From the NCBI GenBank assembly GCA_024401335.1, contig JAKSLH010000010.1:1-64000 (forward strand): 64,000 nt of DNA, in the 5' to 3' direction. The translations under genes were made by a program, and so were the position numbers. Origin of the DNA: Bacteroidales bacterium. GTDB lineage: Bacteria > Bacteroidota > Bacteroidia > Bacteroidales > Marinilabiliaceae. Of the stretch, positions 5,711 through 12,299 are shown in pieces. Each line of letters opens with the position of its first letter. Within the stretch, counting starts at the first letter, position 1. The notes under the pieces were generated by a model. The model saw only the letters and a program-made list of their open reading frames with translations, did not search any database and was not told the DNA's origin.

Positions 5711-5823
5711 ATCTTGTTTAGTGATGTTTGTTTTATGGCAAACGAGCCAAGCCGCATTTTATTGTGTCATTTTGTTGCAAAGAAATTTGTCCTAAAACAA
5801 TAGACAATTATTCATATATTCAC

Positions 5824-5831
5824 TACATTTG
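5824..5831 (+). promoter_or_regulatory. -7 element upstream of the DUF4249 array
   Basis: TACATTTG matches the Bacteroidetes TAnnTTTG -7 consensus. It sits 47 nt upstream of the first lipoprotein ATG; no good -33 TTG lies at the usual 19-21 nt spacing. Copies 2 and 3 have no equivalent element, so this is the only evident promoter for the array and the receptor. Confidence 0.5.
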
Positions 5832-5878
5832 CAATACAAACAGATAGTGAATTTTCCAATCGTTACAAAAGTACGGCA

Positions 5879-6763
5879 ATGAAGCTGATTAATATTATCT
5901 CTGCGTGCTGTCTATATATGCTCACAAGCTGCGTCGAGAAATTTGACATTGATATCAATGGCCATTCCGAACTTTTTGTCATTGATGCCATGGTAACAGA
6001 CTTCGACAGTGTCCAGACTGTTTATATTCGACGCGAACGAGAATCATTAGATTATTATGATCGAATAAAATATCCACCAATAGAAAACGCAACAGTACAT
6101 ATTGAGGATAACGACGGATGGAGTGCATATTTTGAAGATGACAGTGAAGAACATGATATGAGTGAGGGGCATTGTTTTTGGCTCAAAGGTCACAAGTTTG
6201 AGTCAGGTCGCACCTATACTATTACAGTACGCGTTGGTGACCGCGAATTCAAGGCTACAGAAACAATGGTTCCCTTGCCGGATGTTGACGGACTGAAATT
6301 CTACGCCAAAGACACAAAGGATGGTGAAATATCATACAATCCTATTCTATACTTCAGAGACAATCAGCCTAACGTCGACAATTACTATCTGTTTTATCAC
6401 GATCTCAACAGAAACTGGTCAGCATGCCGATATGCTTCTATACAGAGACTAAGCGACGAAGGCCTACGTGGCGATTTAGAAGGGATTGTGCTGGAATTAG
6501 GTCTTGGTGCAGAATGGTTCTTAGATACAAATATCTCTTTTGGAGAATACTACAGCTACTCTATAATGACCATCAGTAAAACAAACTACGATTATTTCGG
6601 CGTAATGGCCGACCAAATAAATAGTGACGGAGGAATATATAAGCCGACACCAACTTCTCCCGTCACCAACTTTAGCGGGAAAGACGTACAAGGCCAGTTC
6701 ATTGCTGCCTCAGGAATAGAGTTTTACGATTATATAACAGAAGACAAGGTGGTAGAGAGATGA
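5879..6763 (+). CDS. DUF4249-type lipoprotein, tandem copy 1
   Basis: This 294-residue lipoprotein has the lipobox LTSC with Cys18. Its start (CVEKFDIDINGHSELFVIDAMVTD) and beta-rich body match DUF4249, a Bacteroidetes family usually encoded beside a TonB-dependent receptor and thought to be a surface partner of it. Residues 1 to about 165 and 224 to 270 are almost identical to copies 2 and 3. Residues about 168-223 differ strongly (FYHDLNRNWSACRYAS here) and are three codons shorter than in the other copies. A 48-codon ORF starts inside its stop codon (ATGA). The family call rests on N-terminal features and context. Confidence 0.75.
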   Translation: MKLINIISACCLYMLTSCVEKFDIDINGHSELFVIDAMVTDFDSVQTVYIRRERESLDYYDRIKYPPIENATVHIEDNDGWSAYFEDDSEEHDMSEGHCFWLKGHKFESGRTYTITVRVGDREFKATETMVPLPDVDGLKFYAKDTKDGEISYNPILYFRDNQPNVDNYYLFYHDLNRNWSACRYASIQRLSDEGLRGDLEGIVLELGLGAEWFLDTNISFGEYYSYSIMTISKTNYDYFGVMADQINSDGGIYKPTPTSPVTNFSGKDVQGQFIAASGIEFYDYITEDKVVER

Positions 6764-6906
6764 TGAATATATTACTCATGCAAAATAGTCGTTGTGGAGT
6801 AAAACAAACTCCAACATTGCTGCTTAACGGGCATCCATTGCGCAAGCCCAATAATATTAATCACATTATAAACCAAATAGAAAGAGCATTAAATGAAGCT
6901 GATTAG
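6760..6906 (+). pseudogene. 48-codon thioredoxin-like ORF in spacer 1 (probable gene remnant)
   Basis: The ORF starts at the ATG overlapping the stop of copy 1 and ends 14 nt inside copy 2. The translation contains CGVKQTPTLLLNGHPL followed by an amphipathic helix (NNINHIINQIERALN). V-x-x-TPT-x-x-x-NG is the cis-proline region of thioredoxin/DsbA-fold proteins, and the helix fits their C-terminal end. The piece is too short to fold as a thioredoxin and has no CxxC. It may be the relic 3' end of a DsbA/thioredoxin-like gene carried in with the duplicated lipoprotein, or a small translated coupler. Function unknown. Confidence 0.4.
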
Positions 6907-7786
6907 TATTATCTCTGCGTGCTGTCTATATATGCTCACAAGTTGCGTCGAGAAATTTGACATTGATATCAATGGCCATTCCGAACTTTTTGTCATTGAT
7001 GCCATGGTAACAGACTTCGACAGTGTCCAGACTGTTTATATTCGACGCGAACGAGAATCATTAGATTATTATGATCGAATAAAATATCCACCAATAGAAA
7101 ACGCAACAGTACATATTGAGGATAACGACGGATGGAGTGCATATTTTGAAGATGACAGTGAAGAACATGATATGAGTGAGGGGCATTGTTTTTGGCTCAA
7201 AGGTCACAAGTTTGAGTCAGGTCGCACCTATACTATTACAGTACGCGTTGGTGACCGCGAATTCAAGGCCACCGAGACGATGGTTCCTCTGCCGAATGTT
7301 GACGGACTGAAGTTCTACGCCAAAGATACAAAGGACGGTGAAATATCATACAATCCTATTATATATTTCAGAGACAATCAGCCTAACGTTGACAATTACT
7401 ATCTGTTCACAGAAGGAGGCGCTGTGGCGTTAAGAAATGGTTCACAATGCCGTTACGTACCAATACAAAGACTTAGTGACAAAGGATTTCGTGACGATCT
7501 GGATGGAATAGTTTTTGAATTAGGCCTTGGTGCCGAATGGTTTATGGCAACCAACATCTACATAGGAGGCAACTACTACTACTCTATAATGACCATCAGT
7601 AAAACAAACTACGATTATTTCGGCGTAATGGCCGACCAAATAAATAGTGACGGAGGAATATATAAGCCGACACCAACTTCTCCCGTCACCAACTTTAGCG
7701 GGAAAGACGTACAAGGCCAGTTCATTGCTGCCTCAGGAATAGAGTTTTACGATTATATAACAGAAGACAAGGTGGTAGAGAGATGA
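6893..7786 (+). CDS. DUF4249-type lipoprotein, tandem copy 2
   Basis: This 297-residue lipoprotein has the same signal peptide and lipobox (LTSC) as copy 1, with one change in the first 20 residues (Asn5 to Ser). The variable core reads FTEGGAVALRNGSQCRY and FMATNIYIGGNYYYS. The 3' end and the downstream spacer are identical to those of copy 1, while codons 125-165 share silent changes with copy 3, so the gene is a mosaic of its neighbours. There is no promoter-like element in the spacer; expression probably depends on read-through from copy 1. Role as for copy 1. Confidence 0.75.
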   Translation: MKLISIISACCLYMLTSCVEKFDIDINGHSELFVIDAMVTDFDSVQTVYIRRERESLDYYDRIKYPPIENATVHIEDNDGWSAYFEDDSEEHDMSEGHCFWLKGHKFESGRTYTITVRVGDREFKATETMVPLPNVDGLKFYAKDTKDGEISYNPIIYFRDNQPNVDNYYLFTEGGAVALRNGSQCRYVPIQRLSDKGFRDDLDGIVFELGLGAEWFMATNIYIGGNYYYSIMTISKTNYDYFGVMADQINSDGGIYKPTPTSPVTNFSGKDVQGQFIAASGIEFYDYITEDKVVER

Positions 7787-7929
7787 TGAATATATTACTC
7801 ATGCAAAATAGTCGTTGTGGAGTAAAACAAACTCCAACATTGCTGCTTAACGGGCATCCATTGCGCAAGCCCAATAATATTAATCACATTATAAACCAAA
7901 TAGAAAGAGCATTAAATGAAGCTGATTAG
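7783..7929 (+). pseudogene. 48-codon thioredoxin-like ORF in spacer 2 (second copy)
   Basis: It is identical to the ORF at 6760-6906 and lies exactly 1023 bp downstream, again overlapping the stop of the preceding lipoprotein gene and the start of the next. Since both copies are identical, preservation may only reflect recent duplication and not selection. Confidence 0.4.
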
Positions 7930-8809
7930 TATTATCTCTGCGTGCTGTCTATATATGCTCACAAGTTGCGTCGAGAAATTTGACATTGATATCAATGGCC
8001 ATTCCGAACTTTTTGTCATTGATGCCATGGTAACAGACTTCGACAGTGTCCAGACTGTTTATATTCGACGCGAACGAGAATCATTAGATTATTATGATCG
8101 AATAAAATATCCACCAATAGAAAACGCAACAGTACATATTGAGGATAACGACGGATGGAGTGCATATTTTGAAGATGACAGTGAAGAACATGATATGAGT
8201 GAGGGGCATTGTTTTTGGCTCAAAGGTCACAAGTTTGAGTCAGGTCGCACCTATACTATTACAGTACGCGTTGGTGACCGCGAATTCAAGGCCACCGAGA
8301 CGATGGTTCCTCTGCCGGATGTTGACGGACTGAAGTTCTACGCTAAAGACACAAAGGATGGGGAAATATCATACAATCCTATTCTATATTTCAGAGACAA
8401 TCAGCCTAACATTGACAATTACTATCTGTTCACCAAAGGAGGTGATATAGCGTTAAGAAATCTTTCACAATGCCGTTACGTACCAATACAAAGGCTTAGT
8501 GACAAAGGATTTCGTAACGATCTGGATGGAATAGTTTTTGAATTAGGCCTTGGTTCCGAATGGTTCTTAGATACAAACATCCCTTTGGGAGGACACTACT
8601 ACTACTCTATAATGACTATCAGCAAAACAAACTACGATTATTTCGGCGTAATGGCCGACCAGATAAATAGCGACGGAGGCATATACAAACCGACACCAAC
8701 TTCTCCGGTTACCAACTTTAGCGGGGAAGATGTGCAAGGCCAGTTCATTGCTACCTCAGGAATAAGGTTTAACGATTATGTAACAGAAGACAAGGTGGTA
8801 GAAAGATGA
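7916..8809 (+). CDS. DUF4249-type lipoprotein, tandem copy 3 (receptor-coupled)
   Basis: This 297-residue lipoprotein has the lipobox LTSC. Its variable core reads FTKGGDIALRNLSQCRY and FLDTNIPLGGHYYYS. Unlike the other copies its C-terminus has diverged (SGEDVQGQFIATSGIRF), and its stop codon overlaps the ATG of the TonB receptor gene. This is probably the ancestral copy: DUF4249 genes normally sit directly beside the receptor. It is probably an outer-membrane lipoprotein presented with the receptor; the ligand is unknown. Confidence 0.78.
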   Translation: MKLISIISACCLYMLTSCVEKFDIDINGHSELFVIDAMVTDFDSVQTVYIRRERESLDYYDRIKYPPIENATVHIEDNDGWSAYFEDDSEEHDMSEGHCFWLKGHKFESGRTYTITVRVGDREFKATETMVPLPDVDGLKFYAKDTKDGEISYNPILYFRDNQPNIDNYYLFTKGGDIALRNLSQCRYVPIQRLSDKGFRNDLDGIVFELGLGSEWFLDTNIPLGGHYYYSIMTISKTNYDYFGVMADQINSDGGIYKPTPTSPVTNFSGEDVQGQFIATSGIRFNDYVTEDKVVER

Positions 8810-11031
8810 TGAAATATATAACAATACTAATAGGCATAAGCATTTGTCTTTTATCTGAGGCACAGAGTGTTTTCGGATATGTAAAAGAGAAAGCCACAGG
8901 CGAATCGGTGCCAAGCGCTGTTATTATCGATGGCAAAAACTACGCTTTCTCAAATAGCTATGGATATTATTCTATAGTTGCGACATCTGATTCTATCAGT
9001 GTAAGCGCATACGGCTATGCCACAGTAAAGAAAGCTGTCAAGGATGCCAAAGATGGACGAATGGACATACTGTTAACACCATTACACACCGACATTGCCG
9101 AAGTAACAGTCAGATCAAAGAGTCTGTTTCAAACAGAACTCAACATGCCACGTATGAGCCGACATTCGGTGACGGCAGCCGACATCAAGGAAAATGTTGC
9201 GATATTCGGCGAAGCCGATGCCCTGAAGACACTGCAGAACCTGCCTGGCGTAGCTTCGGCTGCCGACGGAAGTGTTAATCTGTCGGTCAGGGGCAGTTCA
9301 CATGACCAGAACATGATTCTCATCGACGAAGCCACTGTTTACAATCCATCTCATGCTCTCGGTCTTTTCTCTGGATTCAATCCAGACGCAATATCTACCG
9401 TCGAATTCTACAAGAGCGGATATTCGCCTAAATATGGAGGGAAACTTGCTGCCGTAGTAGATATCCACATGAAAGAGGGCAGCAACCAACAGCTACAAAT
9501 GGATGGCGGCATAGGCAACGTAGTCTCAAGACTCGTGCTGGAGACTCCTATAGTAAAGAACGTAGGCTCGCTCATGATAGCAGGCAGATATGGCGATGGA
9601 ACATTGGTTAACACTATAGCCCATCTGGGCAAGACACCAGATATAGTCAAGTTCTACGACTTGTGTGCCAAGACCAACTGGAACATCTCATCAAGAGACC
9701 GCATCTACGCTTCGGGCTACGCAAGCCACGATAAATTCAAGTGCACTATTCTGTTGCAAGACAACAACCAAGAATGGGGCAACCAGACAGCCACCCTACG
9801 ATGGAACCACATCTATAGCGACAGATTGTTTTCGAACTTTACAGCCACTGCATCGAGCTATGAGTATATGCAACAGCAAGAGAAAGACGTAAGAGACTTC
9901 GAATGGAAGGCAGGTCAGTCGGAAATCACGCTCAAACTCGATTTCGACCACTACCTGAACAATGTGCATCTGTCGTATGGAGCCAATGCAGAAAAACACC
10001 GATACAATCCTGGCGAGATTGACCCGCTAAATGACAGGTCGGCGATGCTACCTCATCATCTCACCCACAAGAGCATGGCACTCGGAGCTATCTACCTAAA
10101 TAGCGAGATAAAATTCACGGATAACCTTAACGCAAGTATAGGCGCACGTGCAACAGCAGCATCGAACTCAAAGAAATACTACAGGATAGAGCCTCGCATT
10201 GCAATGTCATACTCGCTTAGCGACCACTCAGCGCTCAAAGCTTCATACGTCCGCACAGCACAATTTGACCACATGTTGACCAACTCTGCCTTGAGTATGC
10301 CTACCGACATCTGGATGCCTATAAGCAAAATTGTAGCACCTCAGACAGCCAACACATTCTCTGCAGGCATACATAGCGCATTGGCAAATGGCGCGTGGGA
10401 ACTCTTTTGCGAAGGTTATTTCAAGAACATGCAAAAAACCATTGACTATCGAGACAATGCTAACCTCCTCATGAACGAGGACGTAGACCTTGAAGTTAAA
10501 GAGGGAGAAGGCAGAGCGTATGGTATAGAAACCATGGCCAAATATGAGAAAAGAACCTTTAAAACACAAATCAGCTACACCATTTCGTTATCTGAACGCA
10601 GAGCGGATGAGATAAACGAAGGAAGATGGTATTATGCTGTATATGACCAAAGGCACAACCTATCTGCCACTACGACATTTCGCGGCAAGAGAAATGAATT
10701 CTCCTTCGTCTTCAAGTACCACACAGGCGGACGAGCAACCATACCTTATACAACATTCTCGTATTATGGTACAACACTCGCCCAATACACCGAGAGAAAC
10801 GGATATGTGATGCCAGTATTCCACCGACTCGACTTCTCGTGGCGTCACAATTTCGAAACGCACGGTCGTTACCGTTCATACATGGTGTTCTCGCTATATA
10901 ACTGCTACGGACGCAAGAACGCATATTCGGTATTTATAAACGGTAACGAGTTTAGTATGTCGGTGGCAGAAGGATACATGCTTTATCTCTATCAGTGGAT
11001 GCCATCAATCACATATTGCTTCAGCTTTTAG
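8806..11031 (+). CDS. TonB-dependent outer-membrane receptor with carboxypeptidase-like N-terminal domain
   Basis: The protein has 741 residues. Order: signal peptide (to about residue 19), a carboxypeptidase-regulatory-like domain (about 20-100; VFGYVKEKATGESVP), a plug domain (about 115-225; LKTLQNLPGVASAADG, VSVRG-like LSVRGSSHDQNMILID, YSPKYGGKLAAVVDI) and a beta-barrel ending in the aromatic C-terminus ITYCFSF. Such receptors import a ligand through the outer membrane using TonB energy. The ATG overlaps the stop of lipoprotein copy 3. No SusD-like partner is present, which sets the locus apart from a glycan-utilisation SusCD pair. Substrate not predictable. Confidence 0.88.
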   Translation: MMKYITILIGISICLLSEAQSVFGYVKEKATGESVPSAVIIDGKNYAFSNSYGYYSIVATSDSISVSAYGYATVKKAVKDAKDGRMDILLTPLHTDIAEVTVRSKSLFQTELNMPRMSRHSVTAADIKENVAIFGEADALKTLQNLPGVASAADGSVNLSVRGSSHDQNMILIDEATVYNPSHALGLFSGFNPDAISTVEFYKSGYSPKYGGKLAAVVDIHMKEGSNQQLQMDGGIGNVVSRLVLETPIVKNVGSLMIAGRYGDGTLVNTIAHLGKTPDIVKFYDLCAKTNWNISSRDRIYASGYASHDKFKCTILLQDNNQEWGNQTATLRWNHIYSDRLFSNFTATASSYEYMQQQEKDVRDFEWKAGQSEITLKLDFDHYLNNVHLSYGANAEKHRYNPGEIDPLNDRSAMLPHHLTHKSMALGAIYLNSEIKFTDNLNASIGARATAASNSKKYYRIEPRIAMSYSLSDHSALKASYVRTAQFDHMLTNSALSMPTDIWMPISKIVAPQTANTFSAGIHSALANGAWELFCEGYFKNMQKTIDYRDNANLLMNEDVDLEVKEGEGRAYGIETMAKYEKRTFKTQISYTISLSERRADEINEGRWYYAVYDQRHNLSATTTFRGKRNEFSFVFKYHTGGRATIPYTTFSYYGTTLAQYTERNGYVMPVFHRLDFSWRHNFETHGRYRSYMVFSLYNCYGRKNAYSVFINGNEFSMSVAEGYMLYLYQWMPSITYCFSF

Positions 11032-11168: not shown

Positions 11169-12299
11169 ATGAAACACTTTGCAATTCTAATTCTTGCGAT
11201 GGCAATACCGTCAGTGGGCTCCGCTCAAGGAGTATTCAAAATGAAAGGTACCTTAGAGGGTGTAAAAAACGACTCGCTAGTAGTCGAATACAGGCAATAC
11301 GAGCCAGTAGACTCGTTGTACAGCAAAACGATAGCCGTCAGAAACGGCAAATTCAAATACAAGGCGAAAACACAATTCGCATGTCTGGCATTTATGCACC
11401 TCAAGTCGAAGCATGGCAAGGGCTTAACTTTCTATGTCGTTCCGGGCGAAGAGGCTATTTTCAGCGGCAAACTAAATGACAAGGAAGCGCACTGGGATGG
11501 CACAGCATTCTTTAAACAATACCAAAGACTTGAGGACCAGTTGAATTCGATCAGAAAGGAATATGAAGAAATCAGGAAGGAGAAAAGAGAAGCATTGGAA
11601 GCCGGTGTAGATGAGGCTACAGTGGACAGCATAACGGAATCGAAGAGTTTTGTTGTGGCCGACAAATGGATGAATATACTGCTGAATCGTATCGAAGAGC
11701 ATCCGGATGAAGATGCGTCAGCCACGGACCTGTTTGTACTAGGAATAAACTACGACCTCGACACGATAGTGGCCAAATTCACTCCAGAAGTGAGAAACGG
11801 CAGAATGAGAGTTGTCATTGACAAGGAATTGGCAATCACGAAGAAGCTCAAAACACAAATGGCTGCACACAAAGCAGTTGGCAACGACACTGTAGCACTA
11901 GGCGACCTGGCACCAGAACTTAACCTCATGAATCCACAGGGCGACACATTGAAACTCGAATCGCTAAGAGGCAAATATGTCATACTCGACTTCTGGGGCT
12001 CGTGGTGCACGTGGTGCATCAAGGGATTTCCGAAGCTGAAAGAGTATTACGCAGCTCACAGAGACCGCATAGAGATAGTAGGTGTCGACTGCAACGACAC
12101 GAAAGAGAAATGGGAGGCAGCCATCGAAACACATAAGATACCATGGCTCAACGTCAGAAGCGAAGATGCGACGACCGAGGTCAGATATAAAGTTGAGGGA
12201 TTCCCTTTTAAGGTCGTCATATCTCCCAAAGGAGAGATACTCAAATCGTTTCTCGGCAACGACGATGACTTCTTCAACTACATGGATGAACTGCTCTGA
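11169..12299 (+). CDS. TlpA-like thioredoxin with N-terminal DUF4369 domain
   Basis: This 376-residue protein starts with a signal peptide ending at GSAQ (residue 20). Residues about 21-120 resemble the beta-rich DUF4369 domain, followed by a charged helical segment (about 120-240) and a TlpA/AhpC-TSA thioredoxin domain (about 245-376). The active site FWGSWCTWC has Cys280 and Cys283, so the redox pair is present with an unusual Thr-Trp between the cysteines. Such proteins are common in Bacteroidetes and probably reduce or isomerise envelope disulfides. It is a single gene with its own -7 element. Confidence 0.85.
   Translation: MKHFAILILAMAIPSVGSAQGVFKMKGTLEGVKNDSLVVEYRQYEPVDSLYSKTIAVRNGKFKYKAKTQFACLAFMHLKSKHGKGLTFYVVPGEEAIFSGKLNDKEAHWDGTAFFKQYQRLEDQLNSIRKEYEEIRKEKREALEAGVDEATVDSITESKSFVVADKWMNILLNRIEEHPDEDASATDLFVLGINYDLDTIVAKFTPEVRNGRMRVVIDKELAITKKLKTQMAAHKAVGNDTVALGDLAPELNLMNPQGDTLKLESLRGKYVILDFWGSWCTWCIKGFPKLKEYYAAHRDRIEIVGVDCNDTKEKWEAAIETHKIPWLNVRSEDATTEVRYKVEGFPFKVVISPKGEILKSFLGNDDDFFNYMDELL

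Follow-up and report, generated by a model that had tools for sequence, protein, structure and literature searches.

Tandem DUF4249 lipoprotein genes beside a single TonB-dependent transporter gene: an array with uniform ends and divergent middles, probably shaped by homologous recombination

Why should a bacterial operon carry three neighboring copies of a lipoprotein gene that are almost the same at both ends, differ strongly in the middle and lie upstream of only one transporter gene? The question arose in the window, the whole stretch of 64,000 nucleotides that was analyzed, which comprises bases 1–64000 of contig C2 (90,999 bases) of a Bacteroidales genome of 2.7 Mb in 33 contigs, that of a gut-type bacterium. 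Open reading frames and matches to PF14054 agreed with an earlier note that had described three tandem DUF4249 genes (5879–8809) coupled to a single TonB receptor gene (Table 1). All three copies scored above the curated PF14054 cut-off of 28.5 bits over most of the domain, and the start of the transporter gene overlaps the stop of copy 3 by 4 bases (8806–8809). The earlier note read the array as a conserved scaffold with a diversified segment, kept by recombination, as in antigenic variation or ligand diversification at one receptor. Our analyses partly supported that interpretation and point to a simpler cause, in which the gene was multiplied in tandem and recombination made the ends alike.

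Table 1. Coordinates of the lipoprotein array, its repeats and the adjoining transporter gene (positions in the window).
Feature	Position	Strand	Details
Leader of copy 1	5711..5878	+	Unrelated to both spacers (blastn)
DUF4249 lipoprotein copy 1	5879..6763	+	ORF, 294 aa, lipobox Cys18; PF14054 70.7 bits, residues 20-277
DUF4249 lipoprotein copy 2	6893..7786	+	ORF, 297 aa; PF14054 65.9 bits, residues 20-280
DUF4249 lipoprotein copy 3	7916..8809	+	ORF, 297 aa; PF14054 66.8 bits, residues 20-279
TonB-dependent transporter	8806..11031	+	741 aa; Plug domain; CarboxypepD_reg-like match under cut-off
Divergent core of copy 1	6395..6556	+	Its codons 173-226; nt difference 35% to copy 2 and 32% to copy 3
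Core of copy 2	7409..7579	+	Codons 173-229; 14% nt difference from copy 3
Core of copy 3	8432..8602	+	Codons 173-229
Exact 739-bp repeat, first copy	6556..7294	+	Copy 1 3' end, spacer, first 134 codons of copy 2
Exact 739-bp repeat, second copy	7579..8317	+	Identical in sequence to 6556-7294
DsbA-like relic, spacer 1	6760..6906	+	48 codons in frame; overlaps copy 1 stop and copy 2 start
DsbA-like relic, spacer 2	7783..7929	+	48 codons; same translation as relic of spacer 1

The leader of copy 1 presumably carries the operon promoter. A promoter scan returned 5 sites, fewer than the 10.8 in shuffled sequences, and blastn of 5711–5878 against the spacers and five compared loci gave only short matches at chance level. 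The start of the spacers resembles the start of the transporter gene, with ATGATGAA at both.

Divergence among the copies is distributed very unevenly. Base difference is 0–0.5% over codons 1–125, 6–9% both in codons 135–172 and toward the 3' end of copy 3, and 0–8.8% over codons 230–297. Codons 1–134 do not differ between copies 2 and 3, nor do codons 230–297 between copies 1 and 2, as the reported common 3' ends of the latter pair implied. The dense divergence reported for residues of about 168–223 was found slightly later, spanning codons 173–229, with the three-codon indel at codons 178–180 (copy 2 numbering). Also borne out were the mid-gene silent changes that copies 2 and 3 have in common against copy 1 (codons 126–129, 132, 133, 140, 158, 172 and others). 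Codons 126–134 of copy 1 differ at 22% of bases (6/27), so that divergence also steps up once before codon 173.

Recombination between the copies, which the earlier note had proposed, is strongly supported. The exact 739-bp direct repeat was reproduced, and the longest identical intragenic runs (326, 402 and 326 nt for pairs 1/2, 2/3 and 1/3) were matched in 0/10000 shuffles of the differing sites for each pair, whereas in two control pairs of related genes (G009 b/c and G006/C3, loci described below) the runs were matched in 2809/10000 and 2385/10000 shuffles. Between copies 1 and 3, divergence jumps at codon 172; the best segment, 172–208, held 43/100 differences versus 40/407 outside it and was matched in 0/200 shuffles, which were scanned in steps of 6, more coarsely than the real alignment, slightly favoring significance.

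Silent changes between copies 1 and 2 numbered 1/74 sites in codons 1–125, 12/30 in codons 126–172, 27/35 in the core and 0/42 at the 3' end (Fisher p 2e-17 for codons 1–125 versus the core). The silent difference of the copy 1 core, 0.76 from copy 2 and 0.68 from copy 3, is near saturation; for scale, that between the transporter gene and its relative in G006 is 0.84, and the other pairs among four transporters, one of them the second transporter of this genome, gave 0.82–0.88. In the comparison of copies 1 and 3 the silent rate was higher in the core (24/35) than in its neighbors (24/72, p 0.0008), so protein constraint is not the explanation, while a different ancestry of the segment can be. 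Base composition did not flag the cores as foreign (core GC 0.40–0.44 and GC3 0.32–0.37, compared with 0.40 and 0.36–0.37 in the 5' part). The silent sites show ends that recombination has made alike, on either side of a middle with an older ancestry.

The spacers provided a finding that is new relative to the earlier note. Both 129-bp spacers sit inside a 48-codon frame that corresponds to the 3' end of a DsbA-like lipoprotein gene, and both matched residues 257–300 of an intact protein of the same genome at 63% identity (E 7.7e-11). The gene for this intact protein lies upstream of a second DUF4249-transporter operon, on contig C3. Intact proteins of this type have a CxxC motif, and their gene was present at 7/10 fetched loci (absent at L031, L032 and L036), preceding the DUF4249 gene at C3, G006 and G011 and following it in G009. 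Each relic runs from the stop of the preceding DUF4249 gene to just inside the next one, and because it overlaps both neighbors, the deletion preserved the chain of overlapping genes. Of 37 relic residues, 20–24 were identical to three intact relatives, which are identical to one another at 20–23; the relic is therefore as close to its relatives as these are mutually, and has no sign of long decay. No further match to the relic was identified in this genome, which is given as 84.6% complete.

Relatives of the transporter, 64–81% identical, were found at C3 of the same genome and in G006, G009 and G011. The relative directly follows a DUF4249 gene at C3, G006 and G011, the same order as in the window, and in G009 it follows a DUF4249 gene and a DsbA-like gene. 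Of eight window genes compared with five loci (one being C3), the transporter gene alone was shared. A search of named genomes with the transporter alignment returned five loci, four of them in close-kin Bacteroidota metagenome assemblies, of which three came from horse faeces and one bore the name Marinilabiliaceae, and the fifth in a distant Arcicella (30%); copy 3 found no relative among the named genomes, and neither search of these genomes returned a second strain of the species.

DUF4249 genes as such are common, being present in 15/15 genomes of the genus and 54/60 sampled genomes of the order. With the DUF4249 alignment, 1/393 order genomes matched at E 1e-45, namely this genome, in a sample that included two of the genus, and 8/71 family genomes matched at E 1e-30, all of the same genus. 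Among the matches listed for the order sample, two same-strand DUF4249 pairs less than 1 kb apart were found besides this genome, both in G139, and a few further pairs lay 2.6–4 kb apart. Genomes of the genus with closely spaced pairs are G009 and G005, while the members of a pair in G013 are separated by about 1.1 kb. In G009, two DUF4249 genes overlap (copies a and b) and a third (copy c) lies about 2 kb further along; next come the DsbA-like gene and the transporter gene. Copy a agrees with copy c at 49/60 informative sites in its left part and with copy b at 118/164 in its right part, with a split near column 78 that was matched in 0/2000 shuffles, and identical runs were in excess for a/b (68 nt, 0/10000) and a/c (41 nt, 1/10000) and not for b/c. 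This independent mosaic indicates intragenic recombination in another species too.

If recombination made the ends uniform, is there still reason to regard them as a scaffold held identical by constraint around a core that is under diversifying selection from host, phage or ligand? We consider this improbable, and for the flanks it is refuted. Among six related DUF4249 proteins, three of them from G009 and one from this genome, identity over the 15 pairs was 47% at residues 50–100 and 45% in the core, whereas the same stretches of the window copies were 100% and 68% identical. Both stretches are thus fast-evolving in this DUF4249 subfamily, as judged from these alignments, and one has been made uniform in the window array. 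Since residues 50–100 vary among relatives, the identical flanks reflect copying and not a conserved scaffold, and since flank silent sites are nearly unchanged too, constraint cannot be the cause. In the tandem pair of G005, a third species, the outermost 25-codon windows had 81–89% nucleotide identity and the remainder 61–81%, except that windows starting at alignment columns 49–169 had only 36–59%. This divergent stretch, judged by eye, is N-terminal to the position of the window core; the divergent part is accordingly not at a fixed position, which favors patchy homogenization over a dedicated variable module.

The core itself has some signals in the direction of selection. Silent divergence between copies 2 and 3 is even (core 9/38, neighbors 16/72, p 1.0), and the core has an excess of amino-acid changes (15/133 versus 9/273 sites, p = 0.003), which partly supports the diversified segment of the earlier note; the contrast of nonsynonymous to synonymous changes alone was not significant for this pair (15:9 versus 9:16, p = 0.09), and for copies 1 and 3 it was (28:24 versus 7:24, p = 0.006). 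The per-segment dN/dS comparison that the earlier note proposed gave core values of 0.14 (copies 1/3) and 0.43 (copies 2/3), versus 0.02–0.24 elsewhere in the gene where computable (the 0.24 being one silent and one other change); for copies 1/2 the core value was not computable owing to saturated silent sites. In G009 the core value was 0.40 for a/c and b/c, against 0.10–0.27 elsewhere, and 0.17 for a/b. No computable core dN/dS exceeded 1 in either the window or the G009 copies. Because silent divergence is also high in the copy 1 core, much of its difference is a matter of age rather than of selection. The core is therefore less constrained or moderately favored to change, and positive selection is not demonstrated. 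The roles that the earlier note suggested for it, antigenic variation or ligand diversification, are conjectural.

Other mechanisms would make the core an actively moving part. Identical flanks could serve as landing zones across which cores are swapped among copies and strains, changing the set of lipoprotein partners, and the jump at codon 172 together with the older silent ancestry of the core would suit such an exchange. The copy 1 core used as a query, however, found no silent cassette or second source in this genome (84.6% complete), and no recombination site was recognized at the core edges, short inverted arms being present near some cores; ongoing exchange is in our judgment doubtful. 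A diversity-generating retroelement or a recombinase shufflon acting on the core is highly improbable, even though contig C4 of the genome carries a single match to a reverse-transcriptase domain and some cores have inverted arms of 12–16 nt on either side. The retroelement was rejected on the absence of a template repeat in a search with the copy 1 core: this query matched only four places in the genome, and since all four are DUF4249 genes, the assembled 84.6% contains no template repeat. In addition, the listed differences between the copies, read without a count, fall at all three codon positions. Of the ten pairs of inverted arms, of 12–16 nt, some span a core at 416–2841 nt and none are at core edges; the arms are of chance length and differ among cores, except for a palindrome in each copy, and an inversion mechanism for the core is thus unlikely.

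The array might also be an artifact in which the assembler strung together strain variants of one or two copies. The assembly is incomplete, its SSU rRNA was not found, contig ends lie in or near shared repeats, and short reads do not easily resolve an exact repeat of 739 bp. The window is nevertheless free of N, adjacent DUF4249 pairs occur also in two related genomes (G009 and G005), and the 739-bp repeat includes a gene end, a spacer and a gene start, so that at least two tandem copies must exist. The 66 ends of the 33 contigs had exact flush overlaps between contigs of 20–36 bases, with no fixed length, and other pairs had longer, non-flush repeats with as many as 95 21-mers in common; contig C27 matched itself in all orientations and was left out of this reading, and nothing firm on the assembler follows from these overlaps. 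We regard an artifact as quite improbable.

The array is thus probably a DUF4249/TonB-transporter operon in which the lipoprotein gene was multiplied in tandem and has been kept as a patchwork by homologous recombination. An in-frame deletion would have cut a DsbA-like lipoprotein gene to the 48-codon relic, keeping its stop and start overlaps with the neighbors; the unit of relic and DUF4249 gene would then have been multiplied or spread. Copy 2 combines the exact 5' part of copy 3 with the exact 3' part of copy 1, as would be expected if tandem copies had undergone unequal crossing-over or conversion. Homogenization spared the middle (codons 135–229), and codons 173–229 of copy 1 are of older ancestry, near between-species divergence. 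Against the patchwork reading, the array is known from one assembly only, three of the ten fetched loci lack a DsbA-like gene, divergence of copy 1 also rises at codons 126–134, and no donor for the copy 1 core was found in this genome (84.6% complete); a competing cause, fast local mutation of the core, would need to have increased silent change too.

The three lipoproteins are likely surface subunits that act as alternative or joint partners of the one transporter, by analogy with the lipoprotein-capped transporters of Bacteroidota and with a report on Bacteroides thetaiotaomicron. As excerpted, that report (PMC11003636) describes similar consequences on disruption for the transporter BT2172 and the DUF4249 protein BT2173, which function together, and calls the DUF4249 family uncharacterized. 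A DUF4249 gene adjoins a TonB-dependent transporter gene in both cases; unlike the BT2172/BT2173 pair as given in that excerpt, the window array sets three DUF4249 genes, separated by relics of a third partner, beside one transporter gene. Lipoproteins are likewise paired with TonB-dependent transporters in the Bacteroidota systems BtuB/BtuG, SusCD and RagAB (excerpts of PMC10404256), and XusAB is a lipoprotein-assisted TonB-dependent transporter (PMC13142918). By the same analogy the DUF4249 lipoproteins may act as lids. Unlike SusCD and BtuBG, the window proteins had no sequence match to any solved chain, 0 chains matching the DUF4249 profile (E up to 1) or the transporter (0.001) in what was a comparison of sequences only. 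We infer that the distinct middles were retained because binding differs. A stronger version is speculative and on balance unlikely: the array would be a working reserve of interchangeable lids for one receptor, and the binding middles would pass between copies, strains and perhaps species by way of the identical ends. If that is true, losing the DsbA-like partner left a unit small enough to be multiplied.

Other bacterial surface proteins are already known to combine identical ends with different middles. The nearest are babA/babB/babC of Helicobacter pylori, which, in the available part of PMC4552749, have near-identical N- and C-terminal ends, a divergent middle and gene conversion between loci. 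As described there, the bab genes encode outer-membrane proteins (BabA being an adhesin) at separate loci, whereas the window has tandem lipoproteins, and babB has CT-repeat phase variation, the window array having been read as sequence alone. In the open-licence PubMed Central literature we found no paper that joined gene conversion, tandem arrangement, lipoprotein, TonB-dependent receptor and Bacteroides, and a single paper there that mentions DUF4249. The array resembles bab-type concerted evolution in a DUF4249-transporter operon, extending it to the presumed lipoprotein partners of a transporter. Three natural copies that differ mainly in a 57-residue stretch, beside one transporter, may mark a specificity site, and the array offers ready-made chimeras for testing this.

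Tandem arrays of DUF4249 genes were also examined in related genomes of the same genus. In one of these, G005, a second tandem pair was found (L032:5644-8028) whose ends are alike and whose middle is very divergent, at a different position from that in the window. In another, G009, the DUF4249 genes are separated by two further reading frames that appear to begin as lipoprotein genes do (L028:8778-10853).

Features of the window outside the divergent core of the DUF4249 copies
Feature	Window position	Remarks
Short reading frame	275-574	Start resembles exported protein
Perfect 14-base palindrome	5947-5960, 6961-6974, 7984-7997	Near start of each DUF4249 copy, inside uniform 5' part
Thioredoxin-like protein	11169-12299	Downstream of transporter; Pfam Thioredoxin_8, AhpC-TSA

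The palindrome is probably due to chance, and the short reading frame is possibly a broken gene. The NCBIfam matches of the thioredoxin-like protein were under the cut-off, and a comparison with five loci yielded no counterpart of it. The reverse-transcriptase domain had a single match, on another contig of the genome that contains the window (G000:C4:50232-50711).

Each of the three copies has two cysteines besides that of the lipobox (C99 and C186 in copy 2, 6893-7786, with equivalents in copies 1 and 3), the first within the uniform 5' part and the second within the core. Cysteines at the equivalent positions, as judged from surrounding residues, were absent from six related DUF4249 proteins, most of which have cysteines at other positions. 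C99 and C186 might form a disulfide pair, in an operon whose DsbA-like gene was lost.
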